From Blattamonas nauphoetae (Eukaryota > Preaxostyla > Oxymonadida): DNA of 64,000 nt. Location of the stretch: contig JARBJD010000007.1 of NCBI GenBank assembly GCA_033064195.1, forward strand, positions 248,001-312,000, read 5' to 3'. This document shows, in pieces, positions 60,086 through 62,041 of the stretch (the first letter of the stretch is position 1; each line of letters begins with the position of its first letter). The notes below the pieces were generated by a model, which saw only the letters and a list, made by a program, of their open reading frames with translations, had not been told where the DNA came from and did not search any database. The translations under genes were made by a program, and so were the position numbers.

Positions 60086-62041
60086 TTAAGATTCCTTGAA
60101 TTCTCCGTTCACCAGCTTTCCACCTTTATCTTTCGGAACTTTCGTCTTCTTCTTCGAATCAACATTTTTGGATTGTGTCTTCGAGTTTGAGTTGTTAATT
60201 CGCTTCGGAGCGTTCTGCATGATCTTTTCTCTCGTGTCACTCAGCCACCTCTTCTCATTACGAAGGACATTCCCAAATTCTGAGTAGTTGTATGTCAAAA
60301 TTGGAGGGTCGACGTCAAACGGGCTTGTTTCGTAGTTCCTGATCTCCTCATTCCACTTCTTGTCAGCCTTGCTTTTCGTGTTGTGCTTTTCATGTTTGGC
60401 ACTTGGCTTCCTCTGCCTCCGAGCCGCCACTTCTCTGTTGTGCCTCGTGATTTCAACTGGATCGGATTTCCCAAACCAATTGAACAGAGGTCTGTTTGGG
60501 AAATACACTGTATCAAACGTGATAGTTGGCCCACTCTTTGAGTCGGGGTGGATGGAGGGAGGGAAGAAGACTTCTGCAAGGTTTCCAAAGAACCCTTTGC
60601 TGTACTTGTTTTTGATCGGAATTTTGAGGTCCTCGTTCAGATCCTCGACGTATGATGGAGGAAGGTCTCGCACAAATCCATTCCCTTTGTTCACTCGCAC
60701 AGCCTTCTTCCTGTTGGTGGTCAGTCGATCCCACTACGAAGCAGAAAGGAAGCCAATCACAAAGAACAATCGCAAACATGCATGGTCTCCCACGTAGTCG
60801 TGTTTGTGCTGAAGAGGTAGATGTGATAGAACGCCATCCCCAAAAGCGAGAGGCTGAGGATAAGCGAAAAGAAGCCATAAAAGATGACCCAAAGCTGCTT
60901 TTCGAGGACGAGCTGAGTGGAAGAACAGTCGAATGAAGGAAAAACAGTCGAATGAAGGAAGAACAGAAGAATATACACGCATGACAAGAGAAGCCCCGAC
61001 AGTAACCACTCTTCCGTCACGAAGGGTGACGCTTCGGCCATAGATGCCACTCTTCATGATGAAGCGATAACATGCAAGAATGGAGAGGATGCCTTGGAAG
61101 AGAAATAGAGAGTAGAGGGGATATGCGACAGAACACACATGTATAGAGAGTGGTGAAGCCATTTATGAATAGGAAAAGAACAAAGAATCGGTAGTTATTT
61201 TGGCCGACACTGAACAAATGATTGTGGTAGAAAAGGAGACAAACCAGTTATTGAGCCTTAAGTATGATTTGAACGAGGTTTCAAGCGAGAAATTGAATCG
61301 AAAATGAGAGAGGATAGAGTTATGATGTTGTTTTCTTTAAGATGCACACCATGGACAATGATGATCACTTTTTGCGACACATTTATTGCAGATTTCGCAA
61401 TGTCTTGTTCGCGGCGGCCTACATAGATGAATTTTTGAGAATTAAATGAGTATACTTGTACAGCTGGCAATGCTCACACCAACGGAGTGATGAGTACAAA
61501 ACTCCATCGTAGGGGTAGATTGACTCGACAACCGAAAGATTCTCTTTAGTAACTGTTCCAGCATCAGCACTGCACGCAACAAAGAAGATTCCGACACTCA
61601 GTATGACCGAAAGTAGGGCGAAGAGACTGGAGTGAGACATAGATGACAGAAGATGCACACTTATGACGAACGCTCATCATTTGTCCATCACAATAGGGAG
61701 CAAGGACAAAAATAAATCCGAGTAGAACTCCTGCTGCACATGCAAGGTACATACACTGAGAAAATGAGCGAAGAGTAATCTCGTGAAGATACTTGGATGA
61801 CATGGTTGGGTTCGTTTTCAATATGATTCCCCCACCTCTCACAACAGCTTCCTTGGAATTCTTGCTTTTCTCCGGGATGCCCTGTTTGTTGTGTTTTCTT
61901 TTTCTCCGGGAAGAAGCAACGATAGAGAGTATAAAGAGGTGTGCTTCTGCAAGCAGGGAGGGACCCAAAAACAATGGCTAGAAGGAATAGAGCCAAAGCA
62001 ATGACGATTCCCAGTACAAAATATTGTCCACTCAGTGCCAT
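60086..62041 (-). CDS. DHHC palmitoyltransferase
   Basis: Nine exons: 62041-61793, 61755-61662, 61627-61456, 61418-61350, 61256-61245, 61209-61139, 61092-60977, 60912-60778 and 60733-60086. Spliced, it gives a four-membrane-segment enzyme: [48 protein letters not shown], the DHHC-CRD ([20 protein letters not shown], then [20 protein letters not shown]), then two more segments and a TTTWE (TTxE) motif. The WLNNCV part comes from a 12-nt microexon. The C-terminus is Lys/Ser-rich and cytosolic. It transfers palmitate to Cys of membrane-associated proteins, probably at ER/Golgi. The closest recalled relatives are Swf1/ZDHHC4-type enzymes. Confidence 0.87.
60919..60959. repeat. 20-bp tandem duplication inside a DHHC intron
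   Basis: ACAGTCGAATGAAGGAA occurs twice in a row with a 20-bp period within the 64-nt intron 60913-60976. It lengthens the pyrimidine tract on the minus strand before the CACTCAG acceptor, so one copy may be a recent slippage event that left splicing intact. Confidence 0.75.
61245..61256 (-). other. 12-nt microexon of the DHHC gene
   Basis: On the minus strand GCTCAATAACTG, preceded by ..CTTAAG and followed by GTTTGTC.. Joining TG at 61350 to this exon and on to T at 61209 converts CPW and VGQNNYR into the canonical CPWLNNCVGQNNYR. Without it the zinc-binding NNC segment is missing. Confidence 0.82.

Follow-up and report, generated by a model that had tools for sequence, protein, structure and literature searches.

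Microexons have been studied mainly in animals and plants, and an exon of the APC11 type is far below the size that is thought to permit exon definition. Descriptions of the plant genes report a 1-nt exon in Arabidopsis APC11 (PMC8831610, PMC4674806) and 9-nt microexons in the invertases, where they encode D-P-N/D-G/A of the beta-fructosidase motif, and in the AP2 domain (PMC8831610); the last source defines a small microexon as one of at most 15 nt. Within the oxymonads, spliceosomal introns were described from Streblomastix strix (PMC1501061) and 1.95 introns per gene were reported for Monocercomonoides exilis (PMC8767320); the word 'microexon' does not occur in the main text of the latter report. 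Among the literature matches listed (titles and beginnings of abstracts) there was no report of microexons in metamonads, and nothing on the present case was found among the matches listed for microexons in protists, unicellular organisms or palmitoyltransferases, or for Blattamonas splicing.

The locus described here, from the oxymonad Blattamonas nauphoetae, resembles the plant invertase and AP2 genes in that part of a family's signature motif is carried by a very small exon. We conclude, with a probability of about 0.95, that the stretch from 61256 to 61245 is a genuine coding microexon of 12 nt, normally included, in a putative DHHC S-acyltransferase gene of this organism. The plant exons are 9 nt long and were demonstrated with RNA, whereas the B. 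nauphoetae exon is 12 nt long, lies between introns of 93 and 35 nt and is known here from DNA and deposited protein sequence. In addition, the invertase and AP2 microexons are often lost in annotation, whereas this exon was kept in the public gene model; the expectation of the preliminary description that most gene finders would miss it was not borne out. Both the APC11 exon and the present one are far below exon-definition size, although they differ in size and in lineage. The flanking introns are like those of S. strix and M. exilis, which belong to the same group, in being short and of the GT-AG type. Microexons of this kind are already known; the interesting part would be the lineage, together with an apparent repeated use at the signature motifs of one family.

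The deposited protein P0001 ('putative Palmitoyltransferase SWF1 [Blattamonas nauphoetae]', in which SWF1 is the depositors' label only) was mapped onto the window, that is, the whole 64,000-nt stretch of DNA that was analysed, using a script that accepted exact codons only, allowed GT/GC-AG introns and chose the solution with the fewest introns. The 521 residues were matched letter for letter from 62041 to 60086 on the minus strand, in nine exons separated by eight GT-AG introns of 37, 34, 37, 93, 35, 46, 64 and 44 nt. On this mapping, exon 1 (61793-62041, 249 nt) opens with the start codon at 62041 and is followed by exon 2 (61661-61755, 95 nt) and by exon 3 (61456-61626, 171 nt), in which the cysteine-rich domain begins (CEHC). 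Exon 4 (61350-61418, 69 nt) ends with two bases of Trp195. Intron 4 (61257-61349) is 93 nt long, in phase 2, and runs GTGTGC...TTAAG with a weak acceptor; exon 5, the microexon GCTCAATAACTG, occupies 61245-61256; and intron 5 (61210-61244) is 35 nt long, also in phase 2, and runs GTTTGT...TTCAG with a strong acceptor. Exon 6 (61139-61209, 71 nt) supplies the last base of Cys199 and then VGQNNYRFF..., with the start of a membrane helix. Exon 7 (60977-61092, 116 nt) precedes exon 8 (60778-60912, 135 nt), which contains the next helix and the TTxE motif (TTWE), and exon 9 (60086-60733) encodes the C-terminal tail and the stop codon. The sequence itself was a further source for exons 4, 5, 6 and 9 and introns 4 and 5, as were an interval scan for exons 4 and 5, homologue alignments for exon 5, splice-site scoring for introns 4 and 5 and a structure model for exon 6. 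The junctions at 61350, 61256-61245 and 61209, and the intron lengths of 93 and 35 nt, had been given exactly in the preliminary description, which was also right in taking the organism for an oxymonad. Introns 2 and 4 (from 61660 and 61349) were observed to share their first 11 bases, GTGTGCATCTT, and intron 7 (60976-60913) was found to contain a 19-nt near-perfect tandem duplication, CCTTCATTCGACTGTT..., which perhaps represents a lengthening of the intron.

The B. nauphoetae assembly was reported to comprise 88,537,989 bp in 879 contigs, with 44.96% GC and 25,221 genes (PMC10703272); the genome searched here contained 88,311,006 bases in 837 contigs. At 88.5 Mb and 25,221 genes (PMC10703272), it is not especially compact, whereas the preliminary description spoke of compact protist genomes. 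The depositors' annotation used Augustus trained on manually curated genes, RNA-seq intron hints, and transcript polishing with PASA and EVM. The deposited P0001 model may derive from prediction or from homology and not from reads that span both microexon junctions.

In minus-strand order the region reads ...GATCATCATTGTCCATG, the 93-nt intron, GCTCAATAACTG, the 35-nt intron and TGTCGGCCAAAATAAC..., and the joining of exons 4, 5 and 6 gives DHHCPWLNNCVGQNNYR. The microexon codes for the last base of Trp195 (TG|G), Leu196-Asn197-Asn198 and two bases of Cys199 (TG|T), so that the LNN with partial flanking codons attributed to it earlier corresponds to one base of the Trp codon and two of the Cys codon. 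As exon 5 of 9, and 12 nt long, it falls within the limit for a small microexon (an internal exon no longer than 15 nt). When the 140-nt interval was scanned for in-frame, stop-free GT-AG internal exons of at most 60 nt, with introns of at least 20 nt, GCTCAATAACTG was the sole solution. Dinucleotide shuffling of the interval (200,000 shuffles) gave some in-frame internal exon in 52,633 cases and an exon that completed DHHCPW.N.C[VI]G..N in 10. Splice sites were scored with a profile built from 17 other introns; between 61400 and 61150 the donors used ranked first and second of 13 GTs and the acceptors used first and second of 4 AGs. The acceptor upstream of the microexon scored 1.7, compared with 9.5 for the one downstream, and this weak upstream site would favour skipping.

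Homologous proteins were aligned with the gene by means of a spliced aligner written for this work, which used BLOSUM62 and GT-AG introns without a further splice model. The set of 239 homologues without a Blattamonas label (242 proteins among the matches listed, less three) was obtained with DHHC queries, one of which already contained the microexon. All 239 returned the exact 12-nt exon, which is strong support, although these homologues are mutually related and do not amount to 239 independent tests. Relative to a copy with these 12 nt masked, the median score gain was 24 (range 10-33), and the skip junction was used in none of the 239 alignments. Because every homologue recovered the exon, the coding content of the 12 nt is required by the homologues. 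Both the S. strix homologue P0002 and the homologue P0004 returned it; in these two alignments some other introns of the gene were positioned differently from the deposited model. The proposal that a 12-nt exon completes the DHHC zinc-binding core was thus upheld by the deposited P0001 and by the 239 homologues.

Several features identify P0001 as a putative DHHC S-acyltransferase (PF01529). The 521-residue protein scored 125 bits against the Pfam DHHC model (PF01529), for which the cut-off is 28.7. Like the solved enzymes DHHC20, ZDHHC9, ERF2 and ZDHHC5 (PF01529), it has the full DHHCPWxNNCVGxxN core and the TTxE motif (T300 T301 W E303). Fold comparison with the PDB gave 13 matches at E≤0.001, all of them DHHC enzymes, with loose overall superposition (rmsd 6.4-10.0), and eight sequence matches likewise belonged to the DHHC family. 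In the AlphaFold model the block pLDDT was 94-96 across the domain and the mean for the whole protein was 72.7. P0001 differs from other PF01529 members in that its core is split over three exons and in that DAG replaces the near-invariant DPG. This replacement (D136-A137-G138) is encoded in exon 3; in an alignment of 61 of 120 proteins among the matches listed, Pro at this position was present in at least 90%. DPG is common in DHHC enzymes and not strictly defining.

The DHHC cysteine-rich domain has been described as binding zinc through six Cys and two His ligands in two CCHC fingers (PMC7586229). P0001 has the DHHC tetrapeptide and the ligand set C165, C168, H178, C179, C182, C185, H192 and C199, with C193 as the catalytic residue. 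From the count of conserved cysteines minus the catalytic Cys193, Cys199 should be a zinc ligand, and the microexon supplies two of the three bases of its codon. In the 61-protein alignment Trp195 and Cys199 did not vary, and Gly201 and Asn204 hardly varied. The core scored 129.1 bits against the Pfam DHHC model with the microexon and 105.7 without it, the skip form being still far above the cut-off. The skip form reads DHHCPCVG in frame; skipping is predicted to leave the enzyme with a broken second zinc site. Six-frame searching of the unspliced gene gave 27.3 bits (30.1 with its neighbours) against 125 for the spliced form, which means that domain searches see such microexon genes in pieces.

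Introns in the same region were compared across the genome. The 39 DHHC matches were grouped by the author into 29 loci, and the 28 besides the P0001 gene were examined. A scan that allowed zero or one intron solved the core in all of these 28 and returned nothing for the P0001 gene. No intron was present in the core of 16 loci, and eight paralogues (L015, L019 and L023-L028) had a phase-1 intron inside the catalytic Cys codon (T|GT). A phase-2 intron in the Trp codon, as in the P0001 gene, occurred in one locus (L020), a phase-0 intron ahead of an Asn in two near-identical loci (L021 and L022), and an intron immediately ahead of DHHC in one (L017). An intron in the Cys codon of NNC, the second intron of the P0001 gene, was present in none of the 28. 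The deposited proteins P0121 (L023) and P0123 (L020) confirmed the intron readings at both loci. Five intron positions are therefore located in or just before the short DHHC-to-NNC stretch of the 29 loci, and the 12-nt microexon, present in one of the 29, is the remainder where two of the five meet.

Some of these loci were unusual in other respects. The core of L003 (C214:26490-26888) reads DHHSSWVNNC, with Ser replacing the catalytic Cys. The near-identical L021 and L022, both on contig C246, are duplicated DHHC genes with HHCGWIGNDVG; if the junction was correctly read, the last zinc-ligand Cys appears to be swapped for Asp. Closely similar copies were present at L009, L012, L013, L016 and L018 (DHHCPW.N.CIGKSN.K.FF), some with stops or missing cysteines, and these look like a decaying gene family.

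A second class of small exon was found in the paralogues. P0121 mapped exactly onto L023, where two of the internal exons measure 14 and 17 nt; the shorter of these, TTGGATGGACCCAG, codes for the DPG motif. The pattern AG-7 bases-GAYCCNG-GT was present in six of the 28 loci, all from one subfamily of eight, and was absent from the opposite strands of these six, from the other 22 loci and from the 64-kb window. The exon lies at 718-731 in L019, 416-429 in L025, 436-449 in L026 and 907-920 in L028, and, on the reverse complement, at 551-564 in L023 and 630-643 in L024. The introns around it vary in length, from 35 to 62 nt upstream and from 32 to 195 nt downstream, and Asp-Pro is retained despite altered third codon bases. 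When P0121 was aligned to the other seven subfamily loci, a 14-nt exon with phases 2 and 1 was recovered in five, in a non-independent test, since P0121 itself holds the exon. At L027 there was an upstream intron only, with DPG inside a longer exon, a state that is either intermediate or a loss; at L015, the sequence of which resembles L027, the alignment ended short of the DPG exon.

Pairwise identity was 57-93% for the DPG exon, 47-67% for the upstream intron and 16-68% for the downstream intron, the intron values being lenient gapped scores. The exon is not clearly better conserved than the upstream intron, and DNA conservation alone is weak support. Proteins from other organisms (80 of the 239) returned the exact 14-nt exon in 12 of 480 alignments on the six loci; 210 of the 480 reached upstream of it, and a long unaligned linker before the cysteine-rich domain probably defeats the test. 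Because these alignments test it poorly, support for the 14-nt microexon comes from the deposited P0121 and from the paralogues that carry it. The DPG motif is likely to be carried by a 14-nt microexon in six of the eight subfamily members, and the 12-nt exon, which had been presented as a rarity, is probably not alone. The 17-nt exon of L023, before the cysteine-rich domain, was found at the same place in L025 (1053-1069) and L026 (989-1005). Small exons of 9 nt (L028) and 10 nt (L015) returned by the aligner were rejected as noise from poorly aligned regions. A stricter DPG-exon pattern gave six matches, four of them in known DHHC genes; the other two (L054 and L055) were rejected, their P0121 scores of 48 and 56 being no better than those of three unrelated loci (64, 46 and 47).

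We propose that the microexon arose because two introns, separated by 12 nt, interrupt the part of the enzyme that is best conserved, the first splitting the Trp codon of CPW and the second the Cys codon of NNC. With introns of 34-93 nt in this gene, splicing would proceed by intron definition. The 35-nt intron, with its strong acceptor, would be removed first, fusing the microexon to exon 6 (12+71 nt), and the 93-nt intron, with its weak acceptor, would follow; inclusion would preserve the Trp, both Asn residues and the final zinc-binding Cys. For plants it has been reported that the intron downstream of microexons is less often detained and that reads occur in which the downstream intron alone is spliced (PMC8831610), an order with which the weak acceptor upstream of the 12-nt exon would agree.

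The same acceptor could instead indicate a cassette exon that is real and skipped by much of the mRNA, the DHHCPCVG form turning the enzyme down by the loss of four residues. Such a role would be in keeping with a length divisible by three, with a skip form that has no stop codon and with a 140-nt skip intron that falls inside the 34-149 nt range of the 19 introns compared. However, the deposited model contains the microexon and the shortened form was backed by no homologue, the skip junction being unused in all 239 alignments. Moreover, the 14-nt microexons of the paralogues are not divisible by three and could not be skipped without a frameshift, which suggests that microexons in this genome are included constitutively. 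On balance, a cassette is unlikely.

It is far less probable that the gene has decayed into a pseudogene, the introns and the microexon being spurious readings of it. The 19-nt near-repeat in intron 7 might suggest decay, but it is entirely intronic, and the eight GT-AG introns yield an unbroken 521-residue protein that has the core motifs and matches a deposited one. Least credible of all is that a 12-nt string completes the motif by chance and that the actual transcript is spliced in another way. The bare pattern AGGNNNAAYAAYTGGT does occur 15 times in the genome, compared with 13 times for a reversed control, but HHCPW is present within 400 bases upstream in one of the 15, the copy in the P0001 gene; the interval offers no alternative in-frame solution, and an equivalent exon arose in so few of the shuffles. 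Regular inclusion of a true microexon accordingly remains the preferred reading. The remaining pattern matches were rejected as further WLNNC microexons, the DHHC context being confined to the P0001 gene. Seven of the 15 shared an identical 16-mer and had similar flanks; they belong to a repeat-like sequence around AGGATCAACAATTGGT on seven contigs (L033, L034, L037, L038, L039, L040 and L043).

More broadly, one enzyme family of oxymonads may carry constitutive microexons of 12, 14 and 17 nt in its signature motifs or close to them. They would have been created when conserved codons gained introns spaced by roughly a dozen bases, and would comprise the WLNNC exon of a single DHHC gene, the DPG exon of six paralogues and a 17-nt linker exon in three. 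We regard this generalization as evenly balanced. Should RNA confirm it, a metamonad spliceosome would routinely read exons far below exon-definition size, outside plants and animals. The 12-nt exon, in an invariant enzyme core, and the 14-nt exon, at the same position in six paralogues, are ready test cases for intron-definition splicing and for the origin of microexons.

In the three deposited models (P0001, P0121 and P0123), three of 20 internal exons were at most 17 nt long. The survey of Rab-like genes covered the best 30 of 67 matches, at whose loci the author counted 24 distinct genes with 64 internal exons in all. Three of the 64 were at most 21 nt long, and one of these had a score gain of at least 8; shuffling of the introns as a control produced one new exon of this kind in 150 runs. 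At most one convincing microexon is therefore present among the 64, and microexons seem to recur in the DHHC family yet are not frequent in Rab-like genes. The one Rab-like exon with such a gain is 17 nt long and lies in L072, close to the N-terminus and after a doubtful first exon.
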